Shown piece after piece: positions 9,744 to 20,601 of a stretch of DNA of 64,000 nt. How positions within the stretch are numbered: the stretch's first letter is position 1; the number at the start of each line of letters is the position of its first letter. This DNA is from Tenacibaculum sp. MAR_2010_89 (GTDB taxonomy: Bacteria; Bacteroidota; Bacteroidia; Flavobacteriales; Flavobacteriaceae): NCBI RefSeq assembly GCF_900105985.1, contig NZ_FNUB01000005.1, positions 806,001-870,000 on the forward strand, read 5' to 3'. A program made the translations under genes and the position numbers. The notes beneath the pieces are model-generated. The model ran no database searches, was not told the DNA's origin, and worked only from the letters and a program-made list of their open reading frames with translations.

Positions 9744-9748
9744 AAAGA

Positions 9749-9770
9749 CAAAGCCCTAAAAAGGGCTTTG
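9749..9770 (+). terminator. Terminator-like hairpin after the VKOR fusion gene
   Basis: CAAAGCCCT/AGGGCTTTG, 9-bp stem with a 4-base AAAA loop. The T tract is weak, so termination may be partial. Confidence 0.6.
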
Positions 9771-9782
9771 AATTTGAAACAT

Positions 9783-9834
9783 ATTCTCTCGCGAAGAATA
9801 GACACACTCGGTGAGTGTCTTAAAATGTTCGCCG
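9783..9834 (+). promoter_or_regulatory. Pseudoknot leader element, copy A
   Basis: Upstream hairpin ATTCT/AGAAT around TCGCGA. Stem 1 AGACAC (9800-9805) pairs with GTGTCT (9815-9820). Stem 2 CGGTGA (9809-9814) pairs with TCGCCG (9829-9834). Stem 2 differs from the common CCTTGA/TCAAGG by paired changes, which is covariation. It lies 25 nt before the first precursor ATG. Confidence 0.75.
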
Positions 9835-9859
9835 CAAAAGTAATCTTATTATTTTAATT

Positions 9860-10024
9860 ATGAAAAAATCAATTTTAAATTTAGGAAAAGTACTAGATAA
9901 GACGGCTCAAGAAAAAATTAAAGGAGGTATAGGTATCTGTAGTTTTATCCCTTTATGTCCTAATATTTCTGATAGATATTGTATTGTAATACGCAATCAA
10001 CAATGTATTGTTATTGGTGGGTAA
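9860..10024 (+). CDS. Secreted Cys-rich peptide precursor 1 (54 aa, 4 Cys)
   Basis: Leader MKKSILNLGK... ends KGG at residues 21-23. The 31-residue core has four Cys and a Gly-Gly C-terminus. Found by reading the frame directly because it is short. The start is set by the conserved leader. It is headed by pseudoknot copy A. Export and cleavage by the C39-ABC transporter and disulfide formation by the VKOR fusion are inferred from locus context. Confidence 0.88.
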   Translation: MKKSILNLGKVLDKTAQEKIKGGIGICSFIPLCPNISDRYCIVIRNQQCIVIGG

Positions 10025-10125
10025 TAAAATAAGATAATTAAGTCTTGTTATTATACAGGTGTTTTTATAAGGATGAAATTAGAAAAATTTCTAATAATTA
10101 CTTATGATAAGAGAATAATATAGAT

Positions 10126-10262
10126 ATGAAGTATCGAATTTTTTTAGGAAAAAGTTAAATACTATTGAACAAAAGGAAGTGATAGGAGGTTTTCCTGCTA
10201 TGTGTGATCCAGGTTCTGAAGATGAGTGTAAAAGCTTGGCTTTGATTATTGTAACTCTTTAG
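10126..10262 (+). pseudogene. Frameshifted precursor relic
   Basis: ATG at 10126 gives a leader-like start (MKYRIF, LGK) but stops after 10 residues. One extra A in the A run at about 10149 would restore LGKKLN, IEQKEV and IGG, followed by a short core with two Cys ending at the TAG at 10260-10262. So this is a precursor broken by a single-base deletion plus one missing leader codon. A sequencing slip in the A run could mimic this. Confidence 0.65.
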
Positions 10263-10307
10263 GAGTTTGTGTTAAACTATTTTAATAAAACATTAAAACA
10301 ATTATTT

Positions 10308-10532
10308 ATGAAAAAATCAATTTTAAATTTAGGGAAAAAGTTAAATATTACTGAACAAAAAGAAGTTAATGGAGGAGGAAAAGGCTTAAGACTTTGTAGT
10401 TACCATTGTAATGGAACATCATGGGTTTTAGATGGTGGGCAAGGTTCTTATTGTACCTTAAACTTTCCATCTATAATTTATAACCATCCTAATTGTGGAG
10501 GCTCTGGTGGAGGAGGAGATGTTTGGGCTTAA
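10308..10532 (+). CDS. Secreted Cys-rich peptide precursor 2 (74 aa, 4 Cys)
   Basis: Start at 10308 (MKKSILNLGK), not the upstream in-frame ATG at 10269, which adds 13 non-leader residues. Leader ends NGG at 21-23. The core of about 51 residues has four Cys and a Gly-rich C-terminal tail (GGSGGGG) ending in VWA. No pseudoknot element precedes it. A hairpin attenuator and the exporter gene follow, so it is probably cotranscribed with the exporter. Confidence 0.87.
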   Translation: MKKSILNLGKKLNITEQKEVNGGGKGLRLCSYHCNGTSWVLDGGQGSYCTLNFPSIIYNHPNCGGSGGGGDVWA

Positions 10533-10581
10533 ACATTTTCGTTATTATTAAAAAATAGAAACCACTTTAAAAAATCAATGG

Positions 10582-10610
10582 CTGGGGTGGTGTAATGCAT
10601 CCCAGTTTTT
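10582..10610 (+). terminator. Attenuator-like hairpin just before the exporter gene
   Basis: CTGGGGTG (10582-10589) pairs with CATCCCAG (10598-10605) around an 8-base loop, one G-U pair, then TTTTT. It ends 13 bp before the exporter start codon. A terminator inside this gap would let more peptide than exporter mRNA be made. Confidence 0.65.
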
Positions 10611-10623
10611 ATTAACATTCCAC

Positions 10624-12810
10624 TTGAAGAAATTTCCAAATTATAAGCAAACCGAGGCAAAAGATTGTGGCCCAACGTGTATAAAAATAATTGCAAAGCA
10701 TTATGGTAAAACAATCAACACACAACAACTAAGAAAACTAAGTGAAACAACCCGAGAGGGAAGTAGTTTATTAGGTTTGAGTGAGGCAGTTGAATCTATG
10801 GGGTTTAAATCTTTAGGAATTAAACTTGCTTTTAGCAAACTTAGAGAAGCTCCATTACCTTGTATTATTCATTGGAATAAAAACCATTATGTGGTTCTTT
10901 ATAAAATAAAGAAAAATACTGTATACGTTTCAGATCCAGCTCATGGACTTATTACTTTTACTAAAGAAGAGTTTATTCAACATTGGATAGGAAACAATGC
11001 TGATGAAAATACAGAAGAAGGAATAGCTTTACTAGTTGAACCTACTCCTAGGTTTTATCAAGAAGAATTTGAAGAAGATGAAAAATTTGGGTTCTCATTT
11101 ATATTCAAATATCTTTTCAAATATAAAAAATTCATCATCCAACTTATTATTGGGTTATTAGCTGGTAGTTTATTACAATTAATCTTACCCTTTTTAACAC
11201 AGAGTGTGGTTGATGTTGGTATAAAAAATCAAGATCTTAACTTTGTGTATTTAATATTATTTGCACAACTATTTTTATTTGTAGGAAAAGCCTCTTTAGA
11301 AATAATACGTAGTTGGATTTTATTACATTTAAGTACTCGTATTAATATCTCGTTAATCTCTGACTTTTTTATCAAACTAATGAAACTTCCTATTTCTTAT
11401 TTTGATGTAAGAATGACTGGAGATTTATTACAACGAATTAATGACCACAAACGTATAGAACGAATTTTAACTACCTCTTCATTAACGGTGTTATTTTCAT
11501 TCTTTAACCTTATTATTTTCAGTTTAGTTTTAGGGTTTTATAGCCTACAAATATTTGGCGTATTTGTTTTAGGAAGTGTTTTGTATTTTGGTTGGGTTTT
11601 GTTTTTCTTCAAGAAAAGGAAGGAACTAGATTATAAACGATTTTCACAAGTTAGTCAAGAACAAAGTAAAGTTATTGAGCTGATAAATGGAATGCAAGAA
11701 ATTAAACTTCATAATGCAGAAAGACGAATGCGTTGGAACTGGGAGTATGTTCAAGCTCGTTTATTTAAAGTAGCTACCAAAAGTTTAGCATTAGAACAAA
11801 CCCAAAGTGTAGGGTCAAACTTTATCAATGAATTAAAAAATATGTTCATTACCATTTTGTCTGCCAAATTAGTAATTGATGGCCAAATTACTTTAGGTAT
11901 GATGATGGCTATTAGTTATATCGTTGGGCAATTAAATGGTCCTATTGTTCAATTAATCAATTTTATGAGAGATGTGCAAGATGCACAAATATCTATCGAT
12001 AGATTAGGAGAAATTCATAATATGGAAGATGAGGAAAAGCCTGAAGATGAAAAAGTAACTCATATCCCAGAAAAAGAACCTATAAAACTTAACAATATAT
12101 CTTTTAGATATACAGGAGGTTTGGAACCTGTATTAAAAGATTTATCCTTAGAAATTCCTGCCAATAAAACCACTGCTATAGTTGGGGTTAGTGGAAGTGG
12201 AAAAACAACCTTAATGAAATTATTACTTGGTTTTTACCAAGTAGATACTGGAGATATAAGTATAGGAAACTTTAATTTAAAAAATATTTCTCAAAAAGAA
12301 TGGAGAAGAAACTGTGGAGTAGTAATGCAGGAGGGGTATATTTTTAATGATTCCATCGCAAAAAACATCGCTGTTGGAGAGGATTATGTAGATAAGGAGA
12401 AATTAGCACATGCTATAAACGTAGCCAATATAGCTGATTATATAGAGGGTTTACCTTTAGGATACAACACAAAAATAGGTAGTGAAGGAAACGGGCTTAG
12501 TACAGGGCAAAAACAACGATTACTAATTGCACGATCAGTATATAAAAATCCAAAGTTTTTGTTTTTTGATGAAGCGACTAGTGCATTAGATGCAAATAAT
12601 GAGAAAGTAATTATGGGGAAACTGAATGAGTTTTTCTCTAATAAAACCGCAGTAGTTATTGCACATAGATTAAGTACTGTTAAAAATGCGCATCAAATAG
12701 TAGTGCTAGAAAAAGGAAAAATTATAGAAAAAGGAACACATCAGGAATTAATAGCATTAAAAGGAAGCTACCATCACCTAGTTAAAAATCAACTAGATTT
12801 AGGTAAATAA
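10624..12810 (+). CDS. Peptidase-domain ABC exporter (C39-TMD-NBD)
   Basis: 728 residues from a TTG start. Residues 1-130 are a C39 cysteine peptidase with oxyanion Gln9, catalytic Cys15 in DCGPTC, His88 and Asp104. Residues 155-440 are the six-helix ABC transmembrane domain. Residues 480-728 are the ATPase with Walker A GVSGSGKTT at 521-529, signature LSTGQ at 625-629 and Walker B FFDEA. Such PCAT proteins cut after the GG of leader peptides and export the core. All catalytic residues are intact, unlike the degenerate C39 domain of the VKOR fusion. The flanking GG-leader genes are the obvious substrates. Confidence 0.96.
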   Translation: MKKFPNYKQTEAKDCGPTCIKIIAKHYGKTINTQQLRKLSETTREGSSLLGLSEAVESMGFKSLGIKLAFSKLREAPLPCIIHWNKNHYVVLYKIKKNTVYVSDPAHGLITFTKEEFIQHWIGNNADENTEEGIALLVEPTPRFYQEEFEEDEKFGFSFIFKYLFKYKKFIIQLIIGLLAGSLLQLILPFLTQSVVDVGIKNQDLNFVYLILFAQLFLFVGKASLEIIRSWILLHLSTRINISLISDFFIKLMKLPISYFDVRMTGDLLQRINDHKRIERILTTSSLTVLFSFFNLIIFSLVLGFYSLQIFGVFVLGSVLYFGWVLFFFKKRKELDYKRFSQVSQEQSKVIELINGMQEIKLHNAERRMRWNWEYVQARLFKVATKSLALEQTQSVGSNFINELKNMFITILSAKLVIDGQITLGMMMAISYIVGQLNGPIVQLINFMRDVQDAQISIDRLGEIHNMEDEEKPEDEKVTHIPEKEPIKLNNISFRYTGGLEPVLKDLSLEIPANKTTAIVGVSGSGKTTLMKLLLGFYQVDTGDISIGNFNLKNISQKEWRRNCGVVMQEGYIFNDSIAKNIAVGEDYVDKEKLAHAINVANIADYIEGLPLGYNTKIGSEGNGLSTGQKQRLLIARSVYKNPKFLFFDEATSALDANNEKVIMGKLNEFFSNKTAVVIAHRLSTVKNAHQIVVLEKGKIIEKGTHQELIALKGSYHHLVKNQLDLGK

Positions 12811-12821
12811 AATATAAAAAC

Positions 12822-12886
12822 GTCATAACGAGGAATGAAATAACGAAGTTATCTCTTTAAAATTAGATCACTCCATTGGTCATGAC
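12822..12886. repeat. REP-like intergenic palindrome, copy 1
   Basis: GTCATAACGAGGAATG at the left and a complementary-like CATTGGTCATGAC at the right. An internal hairpin ATAAC...GTTAT has the layout of the widespread GTCATTnCGAGGAA type of repeat. Another copy is at 56258-56328, where the hairpin pair is ATTCC/GGAAT. Confidence 0.55.
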
Positions 12887-12892
12887 AAAAAT

Positions 12893-12944
12893 ATTCTCTC
12901 GCGAGGAATAGACATATACCTTGAATGTCTTAAAATGATCAAGG
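12893..12944 (+). promoter_or_regulatory. Pseudoknot leader element, copy B
   Basis: Hairpin ATTCT/GGAAT, then stem 1 AGACAT (12910-12915)/ATGTCT (12925-12930), a compensated version of AGACAC/GTGTCT. Stem 2 CCTTGA (12919-12924)/TCAAGG (12939-12944). Upstream of precursor 3. Confidence 0.8.
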
Positions 12945-12973
12945 GTTTAATAAATCAATTAAATCTTTTTAAA

Positions 12974-13201
12974 ATGAAAAAATCAATTTTAAATTTAGGA
13001 AAGACTTTAAATAAAGTTGAACAAAAAACTATTAGTGGAGGACAAGTGTTTAATGGACCATGTTTTGAATGGTGTGCTGATCCTGACATACAACAAATGT
13101 ATTGGAAGCCACTATACTGTAACTGTAATACAGGAGGAGGAAATAGTGGAGGCGGTAATGGAGGTGGAGATAATGGAGGTGGCTCAGGTGTTATTGTCTA
13201 G
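12974..13201 (+). CDS. Secreted Cys-rich peptide precursor 3 (75 aa, 4 Cys, Gly-rich tail)
   Basis: Start at 12974 (MKKSILNLGK). An in-frame ATG at 12935 lies inside the pseudoknot loop and would add 13 residues not shared by most precursors. Leader ends SGG at 21-23. The core has four Cys in its first half and a Gly/Asn/Ser-rich tail of about 23 residues ending VIV. This kind of tail resembles flexible linkers of secreted antimicrobial peptides, but the function is not known. Confidence 0.88.
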   Translation: MKKSILNLGKTLNKVEQKTISGGQVFNGPCFEWCADPDIQQMYWKPLYCNCNTGGGNSGGGNGGGDNGGGSGVIV

Positions 13202-13229
13202 TAATAAAATAAGCAAATTAAATGTGTTC

Positions 13230-13270
13230 CTAATGATTAAATATTAATAATTAAAATATTTAATCATTAG
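13230..13270. terminator. 16-bp perfect inverted repeat after precursor 3
   Basis: Arms 13230-13245 and 13255-13270 (CTAATGATTAAATATT and its exact complement) with a 9-base loop. Probably a terminator. Its right arm overlaps the beginning of the pseudogene that follows. Confidence 0.6.
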
Positions 13271-13453
13271 AAAACAAATTAAAACTTAGGGAAAGCTGTA
13301 GGTAAGGCTGAACAAAAAAGTATTTGGTGGAATAAAAATAGTGGGTCTGAAATTCCTTTTTCTTGTGAATTTCTTGTATTAGCCCCACCGCCAATTGGTT
13401 GTAGATGGGTTAGTAATGTGCCTTGTACTTACTAGTTTGTTTGTGATAGTTGA
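13266..13453 (+). pseudogene. Degraded precursor, paralogue of precursor 8
   Basis: The start codon position reads ATT instead of ATG. The leader is recognisable (KQI, NLGK, KAEQK). One base is missing before the GG codons and a compensating shift follows. The core PFSCEF, LAPPP and GCRWVS matches precursor 8 at 14638, then an in-frame TAG at 13433 precedes the last Cys. A clear dead copy. Confidence 0.75.
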
Positions 13454-13508
13454 GGTGTTTTAACCTAAATACTTTCTGAGGTTTACCTCGAAGATTAGCT
13501 GTTGTAGA

Positions 13509-13557
13509 AAATCTCGAAGAATAGACATATACCTTGAATGTCTTAAAATGATCAAGG
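13509..13557 (+). promoter_or_regulatory. Pseudoknot leader element, copy C
   Basis: Stem 1 AGACAT (13523-13528)/ATGTCT (13538-13543). Stem 2 CCTTGA (13532-13537)/TCAAGG (13552-13557). The upstream hairpin is shortened. Followed by precursor 4. Confidence 0.78.
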
Positions 13558-13586
13558 GCATAATAAACCAATTAAATCTTTTAAAA

Positions 13587-13832
13587 ATGAAAAAATCAAT
13601 TTTAATTTTAGGTAAAACCTTAAGTAAAAAAGAGCAAAAAGAAATTAATGGTAACGGAGCTATTGGTTTTTGTGATGCTAGTGGAGGTTGTCCAACAGGA
13701 AGCCACTGTGAAGGCTATTTTTGTGTAAAAGATAGTACAGGTGGTGGTAATCCTGGAGGAGGTAATGGAGGCGGAGGTTGTGTTCCAGATAGATTTTGTG
13801 TTGATGATAATGATACATGTTGTATAGGGTAA
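13587..13832 (+). CDS. Secreted Cys-rich peptide precursor 4 (81 aa, 8 Cys)
   Basis: Start at 13587; the in-frame ATG at 13548 is inside the pseudoknot. The leader ends NGNG, so the normal Gly-Gly is Gly-Asn here and cleavage could be altered. The core has eight Cys in two halves: four, a Gly-rich linker, then four with a CC near the C-terminus. This looks like two small disulfide modules joined by a linker. The largest core in the array. Confidence 0.86.
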   Translation: MKKSILILGKTLSKKEQKEINGNGAIGFCDASGGCPTGSHCEGYFCVKDSTGGGNPGGGNGGGGCVPDRFCVDDNDTCCIG

Positions 13833-13843
13833 ATTCAAAAAAG

Positions 13844-14053
13844 ATGAAAAAAACACTATTAAATTTAGGTAAAAGCTTAAGCAAAGTTGAACAAAAAGAA
13901 ATATTAGGAGGTAACAATCCAGTATTACCTATTTGTAAATGTAACACAGTAGGAACAATTATAAATCAACCATGTGATGGTATTGGAACTGGTTGTGGTA
14001 TTATAGATATTGAAGTTCCTGATATTTGTGATGTATTTCCTGCTTTATGCTAA
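13844..14053 (+). CDS. Secreted Cys-rich peptide precursor 5 (69 aa, 6 Cys)
   Basis: Start at 13844 (MKKTLLNLGK); upstream ATG at 13817 overlaps the previous gene and is not leader-like. Leader ends LGG. The core has six Cys with CKC, QPCDG and a C-terminal ICDVFP..C. It belongs to a subfamily with precursors 12 and 21. It starts 11 bp after precursor 4, so the two share a transcript. Confidence 0.88.
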   Translation: MKKTLLNLGKSLSKVEQKEILGGNNPVLPICKCNTVGTIINQPCDGIGTGCGIIDIEVPDICDVFPALC

Positions 14054-14082
14054 TTAGTAACTAAAAATATTTACAGATTATT

Positions 14083-14259
14083 ATGAAAAAACAAATTTTA
14101 AATTTAGGAAAGACTTTAAATAAAATAGAACAAAAAGCGATTAACGGTGGAGTTGATTGTTTTGAATGTCAAAGCTATTGTATATCCAACAGTGGAGGTG
14201 ATCGATTAGTGTATGGTATCTGTATGGATGAATGTATCGCTCAGTATTGTCAACTATAA
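14083..14259 (+). CDS. Secreted Cys-rich peptide precursor 6 (58 aa, 6 Cys)
   Basis: Found by direct reading. Leader MKKQILNLGK, then LNK, EQK and NGG at 21-23. The 35-residue core has six Cys, including CFEC and CMDEC spacings, ending CQL. 29 bp after precursor 5; no own pseudoknot element. Confidence 0.87.
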   Translation: MKKQILNLGKTLNKIEQKAINGGVDCFECQSYCISNSGGDRLVYGICMDECIAQYCQL

Positions 14260-14284
14260 TAGATAGATTAAAATTAGATCTAAT

Positions 14285-14354
14285 ATTTTCTATTTAAAAA
14301 TGAAACAGTCATTACTAAACAAAATAGTAATTCTTTAATTTTTAAATAGAAAAA
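14285..14354. repeat. 70-bp imperfect palindrome between precursors 6 and 7
   Basis: Outer arms 14285-14301 and 14338-14354 form a 16-17 bp AT-rich stem. An inner stem ATTACTA/TAGTAAT sits at 14311-14331. It may be a terminator or a small mobile-element remnant. Confidence 0.45.
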
Positions 14355-14370
14355 TAATAAACGATTAAAA

Positions 14371-14571
14371 ATGAAAAAACAAATTTTAAATTTAGGAACG
14401 ACTTTAAATAAAAGACAACAAAAAGCTATTAATGGAGGAATTGCTCAATGCGATCAGTACAACCATTGTAATGGCTCAGGATTTTGCTGTTCTGGCGGAG
14501 GATGTAAAAGAATAGGAGCTCCTGGAGTAATCTGTGATGCAGAGTTGCCTAGACCAGATTTTTCTCTGTAA
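14371..14571 (+). CDS. Secreted Cys-rich peptide precursor 7 (66 aa, knottin-like)
   Basis: Leader MKKQILNLGT ... NGG. Core Cys pattern C-x5-C-x5-CC-x4-C-x9-C, the C-C-CC-C-C order seen in inhibitor-cystine-knot peptides. Whether it forms a true knot cannot be told from sequence. The C-terminal tail after the last Cys is acidic and Pro-containing. Confidence 0.88.
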   Translation: MKKQILNLGTTLNKRQQKAINGGIAQCDQYNHCNGSGFCCSGGGCKRIGAPGVICDAELPRPDFSL

Positions 14572-14637
14572 AGAATTTATGTAAAATCTAATGTTTTAAA
14601 ACAATTGATAATTTAATCAAAACTAAATAATTTAAAA

Positions 14638-14844
14638 ATGAAAAAATCAATCTTAAGCTTAGGTAGAGCTTTAAATAAAGTAGATCAAAAAAAAGTATTT
14701 GGAGGAACAAAGCAAATTGATCCTCAAATTCCTTTCCCATGTGAGTTTCCTGTATTAGCTCCACCACCAGTTGGATGTAAATGGGTTAGCACTGGGCCTT
14801 GTACATACAAATTAGTTTGTAAGAGCTTAGATATCTTAATCTAA
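14638..14844 (+). CDS. Secreted Cys-rich peptide precursor 8 (68 aa, 4 Cys)
   Basis: Leader MKKSILSLGR ... FGG. Core Pro-rich between Cys1 and Cys2 (LAPPPVGC), four Cys. Its degraded paralogue lies at 13266-13453, showing a tandem-duplication history. Confidence 0.88.
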   Translation: MKKSILSLGRALNKVDQKKVFGGTKQIDPQIPFPCEFPVLAPPPVGCKWVSTGPCTYKLVCKSLDILI

Positions 14845-14897
14845 TACAATTTTTAGGTTAGGTTAATAGTTTTTACTGATAGCTATAGTAATAAAAA

Positions 14898-14946
14898 ATT
14901 TCGCGAAGAATAGACACATACCTTGAATGTCTTAAAATGATCAAGG
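14898..14946 (+). promoter_or_regulatory. Pseudoknot leader element, copy D
   Basis: TCGCGA hairpin then stem 1 AGACA(C) (14912-14917)/(A)TGTCT (14927-14932), with the loop-closing pair lost. Stem 2 CCTTGA (14921-14926)/TCAAGG (14941-14946). Upstream of precursor 9. Confidence 0.75.
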
Positions 14947-14975
14947 GTTTAATGAACTTATTAAATCTTTTAAAA

Positions 14976-15182
14976 ATGAAAAAATCAATATTAAATTTAG
15001 GAGAAGCTTTGAATAAAGCTAAACAAAAAGAAATTAACGGAGGTACTAGTTGTAATGGGCCTTCTTGTTATGGAATTCCAGGAATGGGATGTGGTACTTG
15101 TGAGCAATATCATCAACTTTCTAATTACTGTAAAGTAAGAGTTTTTGTTCATATAAGTTGTGAAACTGCTGATACATTTTAA
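14976..15182 (+). CDS. Secreted Cys-rich peptide precursor 9 (68 aa, 6 Cys)
   Basis: Start at 14976; the in-frame ATG at 14937 is in the pseudoknot loop. Leader ends NGG. The core of 45 residues has six Cys (C-x4-C-x7-C-x2-C then two more). First of a run with precursors 10, 11 and 12 separated by 6, 21 and 18 bp, so likely one mRNA. Confidence 0.88.
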   Translation: MKKSILNLGEALNKAKQKEINGGTSCNGPSCYGIPGMGCGTCEQYHQLSNYCKVRVFVHISCETADTF

Positions 15183-15188
15183 GCTATT

Positions 15189-15416
15189 ATGAAAAAACAA
15201 GTATTAAAATTAGGAAAAGTTTTAGGTAAAACTAAACAGAAAGAGATATTAGGAGGAGGTAAGCCTATTAAAGGAGTAAATCAATGTTATAATGACAGTG
15301 ATTGTTGTAATCATCAACATAATCATAGCTATGGTTATGTTTGTTTTGGAGCAACTCCTGGTGGTCCAGGTGTTTGTGTACCAGGAATTTTTGGAGAGAA
15401 TCCTTGCGGACTTTAA
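15189..15416 (+). CDS. Secreted Cys-rich peptide precursor 10 (75 aa, 6 Cys, His-rich)
   Basis: Leader MKKQVLKLGK ... LGG. Core with six Cys in order C-CC-C-C-C and a His-rich loop (CCNHQHNH) that could bind a metal; that is only suggestive. Starts 6 bp after precursor 9. Confidence 0.88.
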   Translation: MKKQVLKLGKVLGKTKQKEILGGGKPIKGVNQCYNDSDCCNHQHNHSYGYVCFGATPGGPGVCVPGIFGENPCGL

Positions 15417-15437
15417 ATTTAACTAACAACTGTATAA

Positions 15438-15623
15438 ATGAAAAAAACAATTTTAAGTTTTGGTGATGCTTTAAGTAAAGATCAGCAAAAGATAATTAAA
15501 GGAGGAGTTGGTATAGGATGTTTTCATCATTCTGATTGTCCACGTGATATGGGATGTTGTGATAATGCTCCTTATCTAGGTTTATGTATGTTAGGTAGTG
15601 ATTATAGAAGGTATTGTAATTAA
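15438..15623 (+). CDS. Secreted Cys-rich peptide precursor 11 (61 aa, knottin-like)
   Basis: Leader MKKTILSFGD ... KGG. Core Cys order C-x5-C-x5-CC-x8-C-x9-C, again the C-C-CC-C-C framework. 38-residue core ending RRYCN. Confidence 0.88.
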   Translation: MKKTILSFGDALSKDQQKIIKGGVGIGCFHHSDCPRDMGCCDNAPYLGLCMLGSDYRRYCN

Positions 15624-15641
15624 TTTATAAGACTTAATAAG

Positions 15642-15857
15642 ATGAAAAAAACAATTTTAAATTTAGGAAAGACTTTAAATAAAGCTGAGCAAAAATATAT
15701 TAATGGAAGTGGAGGCGTATTAAGTCTTCGACCATGTGAATGTTCTTCTCCTGGAATACCTAATATTCAACCTTGTGACTGGAGTTCACGTAGTATTGAT
15801 TGTGATGGTTTTTCTGATGATATTTGTTTGTTTTTTCCAAATACTCCTGGATGTTAA
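15642..15857 (+). CDS. Secreted Cys-rich peptide precursor 12 (71 aa, 6 Cys)
   Basis: Leader MKKTILNLGK ... INGSGG: the usual GG position is Gly-Ser and a Gly-Gly follows two residues later, so the cleavage site may be shifted. Core with CEC, QPCDW, ICLFFP and a C-terminal Cys matches the precursor 5/21 subfamily. Confidence 0.87.
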   Translation: MKKTILNLGKTLNKAEQKYINGSGGVLSLRPCECSSPGIPNIQPCDWSSRSIDCDGFSDDICLFFPNTPGC

Positions 15858-15927
15858 CTTTTACATACTATTTAGGTGTGAAGTGTTAATGTCAGTAAAT
15901 AATTTTTAATATAGAATATCATTTAAA

Positions 15928-16095
15928 ATGAAGAAATCAATTTCAAACATAGGAACGCCTTTAAATAAAGAAAAGCAAAGAACGATTAATGGAGGAGGTT
16001 CAGGGAAATGTACTTTTGGCTCGTGTCAAAAGCACTATTGTTGCATAAATAATAGATGTGTAATTGGTCCTTTTCAGGAAGCTTGTCCTGAATGA
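15928..16095 (+). CDS. Secreted Cys-rich peptide precursor 13 (55 aa, knottin-like)
   Basis: Found by direct reading. Leader MKKSISNIGT ... NGG is slightly drifted. Core C-x4-C-x4-CC-x4-C-x8-C, six Cys in 32 residues, the most compact C-C-CC-C-C member. Confidence 0.85.
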   Translation: MKKSISNIGTPLNKEKQRTINGGGSGKCTFGSCQKHYCCINNRCVIGPFQEACPE

Positions 16096-16137
16096 TCAAT
16101 TTAATTATTGAATATTTATATTCTTTAAAAGTATAAA

Positions 16138-16171
16138 TAAGCTCATCCCTTGAGAGCATTAAAAATCAAGG
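16138..16171 (+). promoter_or_regulatory. Pseudoknot leader element, divergent copy E
   Basis: Stem 1 is GCTC (16141-16144)/GAGC (16154-16157), unrelated in sequence to AGACAC/GTGTCT, yet the loop is still nine bases ending CCTTGA (16148-16153), which pairs with TCAAGG (16166-16171). This copy supports structure rather than sequence conservation. Upstream of precursor 14. Confidence 0.65.
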
Positions 16172-16197
16172 TTTATTAATTATAAAGTATTTAAATA

Positions 16198-16404
16198 ATG
16201 AAAAAGCAAATTTTAAATTTAGGTAAATTTTTAAACAAGAAAGATCAAAAGTTAATTAATGGTGGATTTGATTATCCAGTTGGATTTTGTTATGCTGTTG
16301 GGGTAAATCCTCCACAGTTAATTGCTAAAGTTCTTTGCAATGAATTATGTCCAGATGGAGCAACTCCTTTCTGTCCAGTATTTGATGATGGAATTAGAAA
16401 TTAG
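16198..16404 (+). CDS. Secreted Cys-rich peptide precursor 14 (68 aa, 4 Cys)
   Basis: Leader MKKQILNLGK ... NGG. Core with four Cys, hydrophobic first third and an acidic C-terminus (DDGIRN). 17 bp upstream of precursor 15. Confidence 0.88.
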   Translation: MKKQILNLGKFLNKKDQKLINGGFDYPVGFCYAVGVNPPQLIAKVLCNELCPDGATPFCPVFDDGIRN

Positions 16405-16421
16405 TTTTAAAAAATAAAGTA

Positions 16422-16598
16422 ATGAAAAAACAAATTTTAACTTTTGGAGTATCCTTAAATAAAGAAGAACAAAAGTCTATTAAAGGAGGAGATACAGTGG
16501 CTCAAATTGCTTGCCGCCAATGTTTACCTGGATATCATTTTGATTTTTGTGATATGCAACTTGCTTGTGATAAGGTTAAAGCCTCAGTTGAAGACTAG
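16422..16598 (+). CDS. Secreted Cys-rich peptide precursor 15 (58 aa, 4 Cys)
   Basis: Found by direct reading. Leader MKKQILTFGV ... KGG. Core with CRQC and two further Cys, acidic end. Last precursor before the HlyD gene, separated from it by a hairpin. Confidence 0.86.
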   Translation: MKKQILTFGVSLNKEEQKSIKGGDTVAQIACRQCLPGYHFDFCDMQLACDKVKASVED

Positions 16599-16631
16599 AT
16601 CTATCATTTAAATAATAGATAAATTGCAAAT

Positions 16632-16657
16632 AAAGGGAGTTGAAGAGCTCCCTTTTT
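16632..16657 (+). terminator. Terminator/attenuator before the HlyD gene
   Basis: AAAGGGAG (16632-16639)/CTCCCTTT (16648-16655) with an 8-base loop, then a T run. Only 17 bp before the HlyD start, so it either ends the precursor transcript or attenuates read-through into HlyD. Confidence 0.75.
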
Positions 16658-16674
16658 AAAGAATAAATTTTAAA

Positions 16675-17964
16675 ATGCCAGAAAATAATCAAGACATAGA
16701 AATACGAAGTGAAGAAGTACAAGAAATATTAAGTTATGTACCTAATTGGATGATTCGTTGGGGAAACACTTTATTTTTTTTATTAATTATCATGTTATTG
16801 TTCATTTCTTGGTTTGTAAAATATCCTGACGTAATAGCAACAGAGGTAATGGTAACTACTTCTTTTCCTCCAGAGAAAATCTATGCAAAATCTGCTGGCC
16901 AGTTTGAAGTTTTTTTAACACATGAAGGAAAAAAAGTAACTAAAAATGAAGTATTAGCTGTCATAGAAAATAGTGCTTCTTATAAAGATGTTTTATTATT
17001 AAAAAGTATTACAGATACAATAAATAAAGAAAAAGAAATTTTTTCTTTCCCCATTGATAAGTTACCTCCTTTATTATTAGGTGATATTACAACCAGTTAT
17101 TCTCAATTTGAAAATCAATATTCTGAATATGTTTTAAATAAAGAATTAACACCATACAAATCAGAATCTTTTGCTAACAGGATGACTGTTATTGAAGCTA
17201 AACAACGATTACAAATTTTACGTTCCCAAAGAGAGTTTAGTAGGAAAGAACTAGAAATAAAACAAAAAGATTTAGAACGAAGTATAAAAATGTTTAATGA
17301 AGGTGTTATTTCAGCTAAAGAAAAAGAGCAAAAAGAAATAGAAATATTACAATCGAAAAGGTCTTATGAAAATTCAGAAAGTTCAATTTCTCAATTAAGA
17401 GAGTTTATTAATAATTCAAAGAAAAACTTAGTAGGAACTACTATTAAAAAAACACAAAACGACACTCGTTTAAAGAAAAAGGCTATTCAGTCGTTTTTAT
17501 ATTTACAAAAAGCAATAAAAGATTGGCTTAAGCAATACGCTTTAACTAGCTCAATAAATGGAAAAGTTTCATTTTTAACATTCTGGAGTGAAAATCAAAC
17601 TGTAAAAACAGGCGATTTAATATTTACAATAATTCCCGAAAAAAGTGATTCTTTTATTGGTAAGATAAAAGCACCTGCAGCAAATTCAGGGAAAATAAAA
17701 AAAGGCCAAAAAGTACAAATACAATTACTGAATTATCCTTCAGATGAATTTGGAGAATTAAATGGAAAGGTGAAGTCAATATCTCCAATAGCAGATGCGG
17801 AAGGAAATTATTTAATAGATGTAATGTTGCCTCAAGATTTAAAAACTACTTATGATAAAAACATAGAGTTTAGGCAAGAGATGAAAGGTACAGCTAACAT
17901 AATAACTGAAGATTTACGTTTGATAGAACGATTTTTCTATCAACTTAAAAATATTATTAAATAA
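16675..17964 (+). CDS. HlyD-family secretion adaptor
   Basis: 429 residues. Cytoplasmic N-terminus of about 27 residues, one membrane helix at about 29-48, a lipoyl/barrel half starting at 55-95, a long coiled coil at roughly 170-290, and the returning barrel (TGDLIFTIIPE, KGQKVQIQLLNYP). This is the periplasmic adaptor that joins an ABC exporter to an outer-membrane channel. With the C39-ABC protein it should form the export machine for the GG-leader peptides. No TolC-like gene is in the window. Confidence 0.92.
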   Translation: MPENNQDIEIRSEEVQEILSYVPNWMIRWGNTLFFLLIIMLLFISWFVKYPDVIATEVMVTTSFPPEKIYAKSAGQFEVFLTHEGKKVTKNEVLAVIENSASYKDVLLLKSITDTINKEKEIFSFPIDKLPPLLLGDITTSYSQFENQYSEYVLNKELTPYKSESFANRMTVIEAKQRLQILRSQREFSRKELEIKQKDLERSIKMFNEGVISAKEKEQKEIEILQSKRSYENSESSISQLREFINNSKKNLVGTTIKKTQNDTRLKKKAIQSFLYLQKAIKDWLKQYALTSSINGKVSFLTFWSENQTVKTGDLIFTIIPEKSDSFIGKIKAPAANSGKIKKGQKVQIQLLNYPSDEFGELNGKVKSISPIADAEGNYLIDVMLPQDLKTTYDKNIEFRQEMKGTANIITEDLRLIERFFYQLKNIIK

Positions 17965-17969
17965 AAGAA

Positions 17970-18020
17970 ATTCTCTCGCGAAGAATAGACAAAATCTTGG
18001 GTGTCTTAAAATGATCAAGG
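17970..18020 (+). promoter_or_regulatory. Pseudoknot leader element, copy F
   Basis: ATTCT/AGAAT hairpin. Stem 1 AGACA (17987-17991)/TGTCT (18002-18006). Stem 2 TCTTGG (17995-18000)/TCAAGG (18015-18020) using two G-U pairs. Upstream of precursor 16. Confidence 0.72.
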
Positions 18021-18046
18021 ATTACTAAATTCTAAATTTTTTAATC

Positions 18047-18220
18047 ATGAAAAAACAAATTTTAAACTTGGGTAAAGTATTAAAGAAGGGTGAACAAATA
18101 AGTATTAAGGGAGGTTCAGTTTCATGTTCAACTGGTAACCCTCCAATCCTGACTTGTAGTAATCATATATTATGGGCTTATTGCGGTCCTGGTGAAGTTA
18201 CATACATGGGACGATGCTAA
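18047..18220 (+). CDS. Secreted Cys-rich peptide precursor 16 (57 aa, 4 Cys)
   Basis: Found by direct reading. Leader MKKQILNLGK ... KGG. Core with four Cys, C-terminal Cys as last residue. Own pseudoknot element. Confidence 0.87.
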   Translation: MKKQILNLGKVLKKGEQISIKGGSVSCSTGNPPILTCSNHILWAYCGPGEVTYMGRC

Positions 18221-18230
18221 TCTTTTAAAT

Positions 18231-18353
18231 AAAATATTCTCTCGCAAAGGATGGACATAAACCTTGAGTGTCTTAAAATGATCAAGGGATATTAAATTAT
18301 TAAATTTTTTAACCATGAAAAAACAAATTTTAAATCTAGGAAAAACATTAAAT
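18231..18353 (+). repeat. 123-bp direct repeat, unit 1 (5' UTR plus leader)
   Basis: Identical except for one base (G versus A at 18253/18678) to 18656-18778. It covers the pseudoknot element and the first 13 leader codons and stops just before the two genes diverge into unrelated cores. Confidence 0.9.
18236..18287 (+). promoter_or_regulatory. Pseudoknot leader element, copy G
   Basis: ATTCT/AGGAT hairpin. Stem 1 GGACAT (18253-18258)/GTGTCT (18268-18273) with wobble ends. Stem 2 CCTTGA (18262-18267)/TCAAGG (18282-18287). Confidence 0.78.
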
Positions 18354-18497
18354 AAAGTAGAGCAAAAAGAAATCAACGGGTCAAAAGCAGCTGTCGGTGG
18401 TTGTATAGGATCTGGAGGTCTTTGTCATAGGACAGGGCCAGGTCCAAAATGCTGTTCAGGTAAATGTAATGGCCGTCAGTGGGGTATTTGTGGATAG
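18315..18497 (+). CDS. Secreted Cys-rich peptide precursor 17 (60 aa, knottin-like)
   Basis: Leader MKKQILNLGK ... INGS: Gly-Ser replaces Gly-Gly, with a GG seven residues on. Core C-x6-C-x8-CC-x3-C-x7-C, Gly-rich and basic, the C-C-CC-C-C framework. Leader and UTR duplicated with precursor 18. Confidence 0.88.
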   Translation: MKKQILNLGKTLNKVEQKEINGSKAAVGGCIGSGGLCHRTGPGPKCCSGKCNGRQWGICG

Positions 18498-18516
18498 TAC
18501 AGAGTTTAGTCAATTA

Positions 18517-18543
18517 TAAAAAGAGATATACTCTTTTTTATAA
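18517..18543 (+). terminator. Terminator-like hairpin after precursor 17
   Basis: TATAAAAAGAG/CTCTTTTTTATA stem; a second weaker palindrome TTACTCAA/TTGAGTAA lies at about 18601-18629. Confidence 0.55.
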
Positions 18544-18655
18544 ATTCATGACACAAGTAACTCAAAACTTATTAATATTAAATGAAGAATCATAAGTTAT
18601 TTACTCAACTTGAAGATTCACTTGAGTAATACTTTATTATTAATTGTAATTTATT

Positions 18656-18778
18656 AAAATATTCTCTCGCAAAGGATAGACATAAACCTTGAGTGTCTTA
18701 AAATGATCAAGGGATATTAAATTATTAAATTTTTTAACCATGAAAAAACAAATTTTAAATCTAGGAAAAACATTAAAT
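18656..18778 (+). repeat. 123-bp direct repeat, unit 2 (5' UTR plus leader)
   Basis: Near-identical partner of 18231-18353. The repeat ends inside the leader at the LN codons, after which the leader end and the core differ. Confidence 0.9.
18661..18712 (+). promoter_or_regulatory. Pseudoknot leader element, copy H
   Basis: ATTCT/AGGAT hairpin. Stem 1 AGACAT (18678-18683)/GTGTCT (18693-18698). Stem 2 CCTTGA (18687-18692)/TCAAGG (18707-18712). Confidence 0.8.
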
Positions 18779-18883
18779 CGAATAGAGCAAAGAGAAGTTA
18801 ATGGAGGTAGAGCTCCTGAATGTTGTATTGATTGGAATCCAGTTGAACGCCATTGTTATAAATGGGATAGAAACTGTAGGTAA
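18740..18883 (+). CDS. Secreted Cys-rich peptide precursor 18 (47 aa, 4 Cys)
   Basis: Shortest precursor, found by direct reading. Leader MKKQILNLGK ... NGG. The 24-residue core has CC followed by two single Cys and is rich in Arg and Trp (DWNP, KWDRNCR). Confidence 0.86.
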   Translation: MKKQILNLGKTLNRIEQREVNGGRAPECCIDWNPVERHCYKWDRNCR

Positions 18884-18892
18884 ATAAAAAAA

Positions 18893-18926
18893 ACAAACAA
18901 CTAGATTGGATTTTCTAGTTGTTTGT
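18893..18926 (+). terminator. Terminator after precursor 18
   Basis: ACAAACAACTAGA/TCTAGTTGTTTGT, 13-bp perfect stem with an 8-base loop. Confidence 0.75.
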
Positions 18927-19304
18927 TGTAAATTAATGGCTCTTAACTAAATAAAGAATGTCTTGTTGTTTGATTATAATATTTAAACATTGACATTATT
19001 GATAATAAAAGCATAGCTTTTAAATAAATTAAAAGCGGTACTACTATGTTTTATATAAATTGATTGTATGGGTTTTTAGCTTAAAGCTACTATAGCAACA
19101 ACTATTTATTCGGCAAAACTTATTGAAAAAAAACTCTTCAGAGTTATGAAATGATGGATTTTTATTTAATGATTGTAAATTCTAATTAAATAAAATAGTA
19201 AGTTATTTTACTACTACTACTACTACTACAAAAATTTGACGTAAATATTTTAATCTCGATTATTATTAATAGAATAAGCTCTTTTAATTATAAGGGTACA
19301 TAAT
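18927..19304. other. ~380-bp non-coding gap in the peptide array
   Basis: No leader-like ORF in any frame. It holds a microsatellite of seven TAC triplets at 19209-19229 and AT-rich sequence. It may be the remains of a deleted precursor but nothing recognisable is left. Confidence 0.5.
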
Positions 19305-19356
19305 ATTCATTCGCGAAGAATAGACACAAGTCTTGAGTGTCTTTAAATGTTCAAGA
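19305..19356 (+). promoter_or_regulatory. Pseudoknot leader element, copy I
   Basis: ATTC/GAAT hairpin around TTCGCGAA. Stem 1 AGACAC (19322-19327)/GTGTCT (19337-19342). Stem 2 TCTTGA (19331-19336)/TCAAGA (19351-19356), a compensatory C-G to T-A change relative to other copies. Confidence 0.8.
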
Positions 19357-19383
19357 AATTATTAATTACTAAATTTTTTAATT

Positions 19384-19575
19384 ATGAAAAAACAGATTTT
19401 AAAGTTAGGAAAAACCTTAGATAGGTCTGAACAAAAACAAATAAATGGAGGAACAGGATGCGTTGTGTATACTCCAGCAAAATGTTTTGGGTGTGGAGGA
19501 TTTTCTTTACCAAATGGATGTTGTTTAGGATCATATGAAACACATGCTTGTTTGGGTGAAATTGTTCCACAATAG
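19384..19575 (+). CDS. Secreted Cys-rich peptide precursor 19 (63 aa, 6 Cys)
   Basis: Leader MKKQILKLGK ... NGG. Core C-x7-C-x2-C-x8-CC-x8-C; six Cys with CC placed later than in the knottin-like group. Own pseudoknot element. Confidence 0.88.
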   Translation: MKKQILKLGKTLDRSEQKQINGGTGCVVYTPAKCFGCGGFSLPNGCCLGSYETHACLGEIVPQ

Positions 19576-19609
19576 AGGGCATATCAATTATTATTTTTAA
19601 GTATAATCC

Positions 19610-19650
19610 ATCCTAGGTTTAATATTTGTTAAGGATATTAAACCTAGGAT
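19610..19650 (+). terminator. Terminator after precursor 19
   Basis: 16-bp perfect stem ATCCTAGGTTTAATAT and its complement with a 9-base loop. Confidence 0.65.
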
Positions 19651-19701
19651 AAAATACTTTATATAAGTCAATTGATTTATTTCATGTGCAGTAAATTATT
19701 T

Positions 19702-19750
19702 ATTCCTAATAAGGAGATGGTGTGCATCTTGAACGTCTTAAAAAACGAGA
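19702..19750 (+). promoter_or_regulatory. Pseudoknot leader element, degenerate copy J
   Basis: Stem 1 AGATG (19715-19719)/CGTCT (19734-19738). Stem 2 TCTTG (19727-19731)/CGAGA (19746-19750), using G-U pairs. Primary sequence is largely lost but both pairings can still form. Upstream of precursor 20. Confidence 0.5.
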
Positions 19751-19783
19751 ATTATTAAACTATTAAATAAAAAATTAAAGATG

Positions 19784-19990
19784 ATGAAAAATAAAGTTTT
19801 TGGTTTTGGTAGAAACTTAAGTACTAAAGAACAAAAAGAGATTAATGGAGGTATCAGTAATTGTGGTTATTATGCTAGAATTAACCTTTGTTTTGCAGAT
19901 AATGACCCTTATTGTATTCCTTGTAATCAAATAGGTAGTTATCCAGGAGCAAGTTCTTGTAATAATTTAGATAATGGGTGCTTTGAGTAA
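19784..19990 (+). CDS. Secreted Cys-rich peptide precursor 20 (68 aa, 6 Cys)
   Basis: Start at the second of two adjacent ATGs (19781 or 19784), because this gives the standard 23-residue leader ending NGG. The leader is drifted (MKNKVFGFGR). Core with six single Cys. Confidence 0.85.
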   Translation: MKNKVFGFGRNLSTKEQKEINGGISNCGYYARINLCFADNDPYCIPCNQIGSYPGASSCNNLDNGCFE

Positions 19991-20058
19991 CATAGTACTC
20001 AAAAAGATAAATGTCAATCAATTTAAATAGATAAAAAAATAATATCTTTTTTAATAAA

Positions 20059-20271
20059 ATGAATAAACAAATTTTAAGTGTAGGGATAGTCTTAACCAAA
20101 GCTAATCAAAAAGAAATAAAAGGTGGTAATAATGGAACATTTCATTATCCTCAATGTAAATGTGATGCTCATGGAAATATAATTAATGCACCATGCGACG
20201 GTGGTTGTATTCGTAAAGAGGAAGAACCTCCTTTAGAAAGTATTTGTGATGTGTATCCTGATTTTTGCTAA
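20059..20271 (+). CDS. Secreted Cys-rich peptide precursor 21 (70 aa, 6 Cys)
   Basis: Leader MNKQILSVGI ... KGG. Core CKC, APCDG, then ICDVYPDFC at the end, clearly paralogous to precursor 5 (13844) and less so to precursor 12, although the three are spread over 6 kb. Contains an acidic/basic linker (RKEEEPP). Confidence 0.88.
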   Translation: MNKQILSVGIVLTKANQKEIKGGNNGTFHYPQCKCDAHGNIINAPCDGGCIRKEEEPPLESICDVYPDFC

Positions 20272-20310
20272 GTTTTAGCTTTTAATAAAAAGAGTAATTG
20301 CTCTAAATTC

Positions 20311-20363
20311 ATTTCTCTCGTAATATATAGACACATGCCTTGAGTGTCTTAAAGTGTTCAAGG
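20311..20363 (+). promoter_or_regulatory. Pseudoknot leader element, copy K
   Basis: Stem 1 AGACAC (20329-20334)/GTGTCT (20344-20349). Stem 2 CCTTGA (20338-20343)/TCAAGG (20358-20363). The upstream hairpin is decayed. Upstream of precursor 22. Confidence 0.78.
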
Positions 20364-20390
20364 ATTAACAAACTATTTAATTTTACAATT

Positions 20391-20543
20391 ATGAAAAAAC
20401 AAATTTTAAATTTGGGAAAACCGTTAACAAAAGAAAAACAAGTTCAAATTAATGGAGGTAGAAAACAATGTAAACCACATAGCGTATGTATAGATTATGG
20501 TAGGCATTGTGCTGAGTTAGAATGCGTGTTTGGACCTTTTTAA
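20391..20543 (+). CDS. Secreted Cys-rich peptide precursor 22 (50 aa, 4 Cys)
   Basis: Start at 20391 (MKKQILNLGK); an in-frame upstream ATG at 20340 lies within the pseudoknot. Leader ends NGG. The 27-residue core has four Cys and ends FGPF. Last member of the array. Confidence 0.87.
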   Translation: MKKQILNLGKPLTKEKQVQINGGRKQCKPHSVCIDYGRHCAELECVFGPF

Positions 20544-20571
20544 ATAGTTAGTTTTTTAAAATTATCCATTA

Positions 20572-20601
20572 AAAAAGCCTCTTTTTTAAAAAGAGGCTTT
20601 A
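20572..20601. terminator. Bidirectional terminator between the peptide array and dsbD-like gene
   Basis: AAAGCCTCTT/AAGAGGCTTT stem flanked by A and T runs between convergent genes. Confidence 0.8.

Follow-up and report, generated by a model that had tools for sequence, protein, structure and literature searches.

A repeated leader element of double-glycine peptide genes in Flavobacteriaceae, predicted to form a conserved H-type RNA pseudoknot

Introduction

Short H-type pseudoknots with an A-rich third loop are known from the 5′ leaders of the preQ1-I and SAM-II riboswitches. The gene 32 operator of phage T4 places an H-type knot upstream of an unstructured, A/U-rich mRNA start region and serves a single autoregulated gene, and the Downstream-peptide motif RNA is a conserved leader located before short peptide open reading frames (ORFs). 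Here we analyse an element of about 50 nucleotides (nt) that is repeated in a 64,000-nt stretch of the Tenacibaculum sp. MAR_2010_89 genome (contig NZ_FNUB01000005.1, positions 806,001–870,000; hereafter the window), in front of genes for short peptides with a double-glycine leader. An earlier note on this DNA had described eleven such elements upstream of peptide precursor genes, and had proposed that they fold into an H-type pseudoknot and act in cis as RNA, outside any named family.

Eleven copies of the element in the window

All eleven copies (A–K) were located, each on the plus strand, and in 11 of 11 the 3′ end of stem 2 (S2) lies 25–30 nt before the ATG of a double-glycine-leader gene:

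9783..9834, plus strand: element A; inverted repeat 9783–9799, stem 1 (S1) 9800–9805/9815–9820, S2 9809–9814/9829–9834 with the variant CGGUGA/UCGCCG; ATG at 9860
12893..12944, plus strand: element B; S1 AGACAU/AUGUCU, S2 CCUUGA/UCAAGG; ATG at 12974
13506..13557, plus strand: element C; degenerate 5′ inverted repeat; ATG at 13587
14895..14946, plus strand: element D; degenerate 5′ repeat, one C-A mismatch in the top pair of S1; ATG at 14976
16122..16171, plus strand: element E (divergent); S1 GCUC/GAGC through compensatory changes; ATG at 16198
17970..18020, plus strand: element F; the model match begins 3 nt past the stop codon of the HlyD-like gene; ATG at 18047
18236..18287, plus strand: element G; located between two peptide genes; ATG at 18315
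18661..18712, plus strand: element H; ATG at 18740
19305..19356, plus strand: element I; S2 UCUUGA/UCAAGA, compensatory; ATG at 19384
19718..19750, plus strand: element J (divergent); pseudoknot core without a clear 5′ repeat; ATG at 19781
20312..20363, plus strand: element K; degenerate 5′ repeat; ATG at 20391

In the alignment of these copies, 95.4% of the S1 cells and 98.5% of the S2 cells are paired, and cells with changes on both sides number 11 over three helices, compared with 3.7 in shuffles. In the divergent copies E and J, other pairs maintain the two helices in register, with one S1 pair lost in each copy (in J, S1 is GGUGU/ACGUC and S2 UCUUG/CGAGA). The compensatory variants listed in the earlier note for copies B, E and I are borne out; the S2 of copy A, given there as CGGTGA/TCGCCG, includes one U-G pair. 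A loose pattern of the element gives seven exact matches in the 4.17-Mb genome and none for a reversed-pattern control.

The consensus reads S1 AGACAY, loop 1 AAA, S2 YYKUGA, the 3′ strand of S1 RUGUCU, loop 3 UUUAAAUGU (8–9 nt, A-rich) and the 3′ strand of S2 UCAMGG, followed by the AUG after a spacer of about 27 nt. Near-invariant positions are G21, C23, A26 (96%), G37, C39, A43/A44 (100/98%) and G47 (90%); conservation of the loop residues A26, A43/A44 and G47 suggests specific tertiary or trans contacts.

Covariation of the two crossing stems

From the eleven-copy alignment we built two models, R1 with only S1 paired and R2 with only S2 paired. Since each of them pairs one stem only, the other stem can be tested on matches that were not selected for it. 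In the first set of relatives, where all rows were used and identical rows counted once (also for the 5′ repeat below), S2 is paired in 97.6% of cells on the R1-fitted rows, with double changes in 6 of 6 pairs and 41 double-change cells compared with 5.0 in shuffled alignments. Conversely, S1 is paired in 96.0% of cells on the R2-fitted rows, with double changes in 4 of 6 pairs and 24 such cells against 5.7. When both sets of relatives are pooled, S2 takes 65 distinct forms in 201 sequences, 40 of them fully paired, and S1 takes 48 in 225, of which 27 are fully paired; these counts, and the G-U counts below, cover 201 of 219 rows for S2 and 225 of 241 for S1, after removal of locus L094 and of rows with gaps in the helix. 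The S2 variants include CCUUGA/UCAAGG, CUGUGA/UCACAG, CGGUGA/UCACCG, CUUUGG/CCAAAG, UCAAGA/UCUUGA and CUGUAA/UUGCAG, and those of S1 AGACAC/GUGUCU, AGGCAU/GUGCCU, UGGCAU/AUGCCA and AGACCA/UGGUCU.

Covariation was weighed against phylogeny with a phylogeny-preserving null of our own, rather than R-scape, on 205/219 entries. For this null, as for the parsimony, palindrome, folding-energy, upstream, downstream, promoter, peptide-gene and upstream-ORF counts, we excluded the weak matches L085 and L098 and the match L094:163-221, in which the halves of the element form a palindrome in a small contig of a metagenome-assembled genome, judged to be an assembly artefact; duplicates, gap-rich rows, rows near a locus end and rows without a recognisable S1 or ATG were likewise removed. 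Among the 17 proposed pairs, S2 pairs 30-53 and 31-52 reach E=2.8e-4, the floor of the test, on the R1 rows, and the remaining four S2 pairs lie at E 0.057–0.34. On the R2 rows, S1 pairs 25-35, 20-40, 24-36 and 22-38 reach E=0.0019, 0.0047, 0.0072 and 0.019, and the other two S1 pairs vary too little for significance. Three pairs outside the proposal, 30-52, 31-53 and 10-13, also score below 0.05 when the same 17-pair scale is applied. A different, earlier null on 89 sequences (without L094, L086:1-26, L087:509 and duplicates) gave one S2 pair at E=0.033 over all pairs, the next being at 0.22. Parsimony on trees built without the tested columns (205/219 entries) counts 75 double changes for S2 compared with 4–12 in slid controls, and 43 for S1 compared with 0–5; trees from so few columns are poor, and the counts are therefore relative measures only.

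Both stems thus pass the kind of check that the earlier note had proposed, covariance models, a scan of relatives and a test of covariation: two crossing helices each covary on an alignment not fitted to it, as expected for an H-type pseudoknot, though some pairs fall short of significance. When three copies were folded with nested pairs only, the z-scores were -0.18, -1.50 and 0.52, close to shuffles, and nested folds cannot show a knot. Taken together, the alignments strongly support a conserved RNA pseudoknot in which both stems are kept by paired mutations.

The strand on which the element would act is indicated by its wobble pairs. On the gene-sense strand, and with cells taken as independent, the distinct helices contain 37 G-U compared with 8 A-C combinations in S2 (p=1.5e-5) and 27 compared with 9 in S1 (p=0.004). 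This excess points to an RNA of the plus, gene-sense strand, since a DNA palindrome gives no reason for it. Together with the fixed spacing to the start codon and the strong association with double-glycine genes described below, it upholds the view that the element is a cis-acting RNA, which we regard as very probable.

Distribution

In its own genome, R1 finds 15 strong copies, the eleven of the window and four on contig C4, all of which precede double-glycine ORFs, and two further weak matches (E 0.81 and 5.84). The copies on C4 form a cluster of three (435951–441433) and a single copy at 375761.

A combined model, R3 (cut-off E<=1e-3, with the stricter filters of Infernal), was run on overlapping samples of the family, order and phylum. 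It matched 48 of 397 family genomes, in 40 of 237 genera, 10 of 296 genomes of the order, including one from a different family, and 8 of 395 phylum-wide genomes, all 8 in the family. An exact pattern was present in at least 80 stretches of the named genome collection; among the matches listed are Tenacibaculum, Bizionia, Winogradskyella, Polaribacter, Dokdonia, Aquimarina, Lutibacter, Lacinutrix, Gelidibacter, Ulvibacterium, Flavivirga and Galbibacter. When 58 genomes of the genus were searched with a peptide profile and for the element (E<=1e-3), 13 contained both, one the element only (G046, which has another leader type), one the peptide only (G016) and 43 neither (Fisher p=6e-11, uncorrected for shared ancestry). 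Genome G056 counts as having both only through the artefact L094, without which the numbers become 12, 1, 2 and 43 (p=1.3e-9, with ancestry again uncorrected). The matches examined include about 220 examples, nearly all from Flavobacteriaceae, and the element appears to be an unnamed class of structured RNA.

Gene context and start region

Context was examined for 242 matches with a loose leader pattern of our own, GTG and TTG starts being allowed within 140 nt. By this automatic test a double-glycine-type ORF follows 223 of them, a few of which are doubtful (L085 is counted), chiefly among the 21 with a spacing outside 20–28 nt. The other 202 have the ATG 20–28 nt past the model end, and the knot ends about 24–32 nt before the start codon. 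Of the 19 exceptions, 11 are broken or divergent peptide genes as judged by eye and three are L094 (twice) and L098; L087:509 and L067:4541 precede a VKOR-like gene, L071:11063 an assembly gap and L124 a lipoprotein-type ORF, and L176:2971 is ambiguous.

The lipoprotein-type ORF starts 20 nt after an element-like match (L124:1501-1558, E 7e-6). In genome G521, which belongs to a family other than Flavobacteriaceae and has the only match from outside it, a well-formed element (L285:921-978, E 4e-10, S2 CUAUGA/UCAUAG) lies 25 nt before a 114-residue ORF with a signal-peptide-like start, which is not a double-glycine peptide and may represent a second class of targets. Since L124 and L285 precede other genes, the association with double-glycine peptides, though strong, is not exclusive, and the spacing persists in front of these unrelated genes.

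The matches before VKOR-like genes (L087:509-557 and L067:4541-4578) are shortened, with the 5′ repeat and an S1 with a tiny loop and without the 5′ strand of S2; their UUCGC can pair instead with GCGAA of the 5′ repeat, an alternative pairing that copy A of the window can also form. Intact-looking elements stand before apparently broken peptide genes with early stops or lost starts (L076:5566, L147:1423, L179:5696, L200:1251 and others), suggesting turnover of the peptide arsenal.

Among 385 distinct peptide genes in the fetched loci, 209 have an element and 176 do not, a share that overstates the former because the loci were sampled around element matches. A peptide gene lies upstream within 600 nt for 139 of these 176, and within 60 nt for 97, and a median of 31.5 nt separates the 176 from the same-strand gene upstream; the remaining 37 are not explained by lying behind a peptide gene. 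None of the 209 genes with an element is within 60 nt of a peptide gene, which is partly forced, as the element itself occupies about 80 nt. A same-strand ORF of at least 40 residues is present within 400 nt upstream of 197 matches, 52 of which begin no more than 20 nt, and 93 no more than 40 nt, past its stop codon, so that the element often constitutes the whole intergenic region. Among the 30 closest matches listed, 12 follow an ORF of 428–430 residues, the size of the HlyD-like gene of the window.

Downstream of the element, the profile of 224 entries shows A at position -3 in 91% and at -12 in 90%. Adenines at -3, -6, -12 and -13 promote initiation in Flavobacterium johnsoniae, a member of a phylum without Shine-Dalgarno sequences (PMC6847099). 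An upstream ORF starting at an AUG in the third loop was considered and rejected, the AUG being present in only 139 of 232 distinct elements with a frame ranging from 8 codons or fewer to more than 25.

The 5′ inverted repeat and upstream sequence

Of the layout in the earlier note, the ATTCT/AGAAT hairpin is supported only in part. It is paired in only 70% of cells in the eleven copies (C, D, E and K break it, and the aligned part of J lacks it) and in 81.3% in the first set of relatives. None of its pairs falls below 0.05 among the 17 proposed pairs under the phylogeny-preserving null, G-U and A-C combinations (51 vs 36) show no significant strand bias (p=0.13), the folding energies of the two strands do not differ (p=0.27, 178 entries), and parsimony counts 143 breaking compared with 41 double events. 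The centre of the repeat is also readable as a palindrome in another register (125 entries), and the signal of pair 10-13 hints at a palindrome within the repeat, at a position scarcely able to pair in an RNA hairpin. On the other side, the sequence of the repeat is conserved, its stability exceeds that of column-permuted versions (-0.98 vs -0.705, sd 0.075), and an own-genome search with up to 3 mismatches finds nine places, all of them elements. Because of the frequent breaks, the alternative register and the lack of a strand bias or a significant pair, we do not accept it as an established RNA hairpin; with the A-rich stretch directly before it, which provides the only informative columns upstream (207 entries), it may be either a second RNA hairpin or the promoter or operator of the unit.

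The flavobacterial primary sigma factor uses TAnnTTTG (PMC9723704). A housekeeping promoter of this kind upstream of the element was looked for in 158 entries and rejected, the box occurring in 17 of 100 “far” regions (12.1 on average after shuffling) and in 5 of 58 “near” regions (4.3). Before ordinary genes of the same loci it occurs in 59 of 264 (30.8 shuffled), so the single box has some power, and the “far” set is not clearly poorer in it than ordinary genes; a two-box pattern is not clearly enriched even before the latter (7 of 264 vs 4.4). Sigma-54-like and TAnnTTGY sites are not enriched upstream of the elements (178 entries). Five window copies contain the E. coli-like TAGACA-16-TAAAAT (9799–9826, 12909–12936, 13522–13549, 14911–14938 and 18677–18704), with near variants in copies G and K; such matches are probably fortuitous in this phylum.

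Peptide genes and neighbouring genes of the window

The window contains 22 intact short ORFs with a double-glycine leader (9860..20543, plus strand) of the type MKKQILNLGKTLNKxEQKxINGG. The leaders end in GG or a near variant (GS, GN) and a C39-peptidase ABC exporter is encoded nearby, as in double-glycine-leader secreted peptide systems. Eleven of the 22 genes are preceded by the element; the 11 others all lie behind another peptide gene, 10 within 111 nt and one at 283 nt. The associated genes are:

8154..9743, plus strand: VKOR, thioredoxin and C39-like protein
10624..12810, plus strand: C39-peptidase ABC exporter (double-glycine peptide secretion)
16675..17964, plus strand: HlyD-like membrane-fusion protein

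The HlyD-like protein probably belongs to the C39 exporter. The peptide cores (9860–20543) are very diverse and Cys-rich in most cases, and in the peptide at 18315–18497 the Cys spacing recalls cystine knots, with a weak Pfam Conotoxin match below cut-off (E 0.013). A VKOR-thioredoxin gene beside Cys-rich peptides suggests disulfide formation, and the product of 8154..9743 is likely to serve the peptides in this way. Degraded copies of peptide genes, judged by eye, are present at about 10137–10270 and 13270–13440, the latter resembling the gene at 14638–14844. Upstream of the cluster, a LuxR-type protein with a GerE domain (4671–5414) and a response-regulator-like protein (7349–8035) are candidate transcriptional regulators.

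Discussion

We infer that the element is transcribed with its gene and controls ribosome loading or the fate of the mRNA. The reading we favour, and to which we give about an even chance, is a family of cis-acting leader RNAs that gate ribosome loading at double-glycine-peptide units. S1 (about 6 base pairs), the 3-nt A-rich loop, S2 (about 6 base pairs) and the 8–9-nt A-rich loop would fold into a compact H-type knot in the mRNA of the unit, at the edge of the ribosome-binding region. The knot, either through its own folding or with a trans-acting protein or small molecule bound to it, would gate loading of the 30S subunit at the adjacent start region, which is Kozak-like and devoid of a Shine-Dalgarno sequence. 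Both the first gene and the peptide genes that follow it closely would depend on the knot for their expression, and all such peptide units would form one post-transcriptional regulon. Translation is favoured by the spacing and the signature of the start region.

Several points weigh against this reading. When all 1540 column pairs are counted, E stays below 0.05 for S2 pairs 30-53 and 31-52 alone. The lack of an element before operon-internal peptide genes implies that it is not required at each start codon, and confinement to unit heads fits control of stability, processing or transcription as well as translation. At position -6, a reported determinant of initiation, the profile has T (71%) and not A, and an inherited cassette structure alone could keep much of the spacing. 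Finally, no conserved trans-acting partner was found, although no systematic search for one was made.

The strongest competitor, possible but clearly less probable than gating of ribosome loading, is a role in mRNA processing or stability. Here, the knot, with the 5′ repeat as a hairpin, would block decay or set a processed 5′ end, keeping peptide segments above the level of the preceding transporter segment. Confinement to unit heads and the frequent abutting of upstream stop codons (52 of 197 matches) speak for processing, for stability or for a promoter within the 5′ repeat, and a stability role would also agree with the lack of a housekeeping promoter signal upstream. Such a role does not, however, require the tight spacing to the start codon that is kept even before unrelated genes, and we know of no exonuclease block by an H-type knot, which counts against it.

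A riboswitch with an H-type fold comparable to preQ1-I or SAM-II, sensing a metabolite or ion and switching the peptide units in response, would account for the compact knot with near-invariant loop adenines and core pairs and for the predominance of one downstream gene class. We consider it unlikely, as no Rfam riboswitch matches, the target genes point to no metabolite, the 3′ strand of S2 is not the ribosome-binding site, and no plus-strand site resembling an intrinsic terminator occurs between any of the eleven window elements and its ATG. It is also quite improbable that the element acts as DNA, as a promoter or operator of interlocked inverted repeats and not as RNA: a palindrome would treat G-T and A-C alike, whereas the G-U pairs of S1 and S2 are strand-asymmetric and the two stems covary in a crossing arrangement, and TAnnTTTG is the box of the flavobacterial primary sigma factor. 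The TAGACA-16-TAAAAT matches in five copies, the absence of a promoter motif at fixed spacing upstream, and a 5′ repeat that is conserved in sequence, without strand bias and often broken, are on its side, and the DNA reading could be true of the 5′ repeat alone. That the covariation reflects nothing but shared ancestry of duplicated leaders is hardly credible, because the shuffle, phylogeny-preserving and slid controls and the strand-specific G-U excess already largely contradict it, even though copies within a cluster are related, some are identical, and just two pairs pass in the count over all column pairs.

Returning to ribosome loading, a further-reaching version, which we put forward only tentatively, is a self-contained module in which the knot, immediately before the 30S footprint, would recruit or license ribosomes, or else a dedicated RNA-binding regulator. 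Being borne with the gene as a cassette, it would let one post-transcriptional signal switch the whole dispersed double-glycine arsenal of a genome and, occasionally, another secreted protein. If true, such a module would operate in bacteria that do not use Shine-Dalgarno pairing. The element is the first sequence handle known to us on co-regulation of large secreted double-glycine peptide arrays in these bacteria, and offers a testable case of control of translation or stability by an upstream RNA structure in organisms without Shine-Dalgarno sites. It also helps gene finding, as a short ORF usually starts about 27 nt beyond a match.

The view of the earlier note that no named family matches agrees with Rfam 15, which gives no match at or above the gathering score in the whole window. 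At E<=5, the region 9700–20600 yields only SpF51, AbsR25 and mir-7360, all below cut-off and judged to be chance, and 13 relatives' loci (135,513 bases) contain no match except the unrelated DUF805b RNA (RF02914, L181:8745-8780). No paper on such a leader was found in the open PMC subset. The table of 104 motifs in PMC2864571 includes Bacteroidetes motifs, none of which is tied to such peptides in the available parts, and the available portions of the main texts of PMC8632094 and PMC11109978 do not mention flavobacteria or Bacteroides; an earlier unnamed sighting, for instance in supplements, is possible.

Compared with preQ1-I and SAM-II, the element is similarly a short 5′-leader H-type pseudoknot with an A-rich third loop, but it falls outside their Rfam models, which give no match in the window or the 13 relatives' loci, and it differs in gene context and host group and has no known ligand. 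As in the T4 gene 32 operator, an H-type knot is located upstream of an A/U-rich start region, although here as a family dispersed over many units and with no known binding protein. The Downstream-peptide motif (RF01704), listed as cyanobacterial/marine in Table 1 of PMC2864571, shares the placement before short peptides, but its model does not match the element. The STAXI motif, described in the same source, also consists of repeated small pseudoknots for which the authors favour RNA over DNA; it occurs in two or three tandem copies near DNA-handling genes, with no link to peptide leaders.

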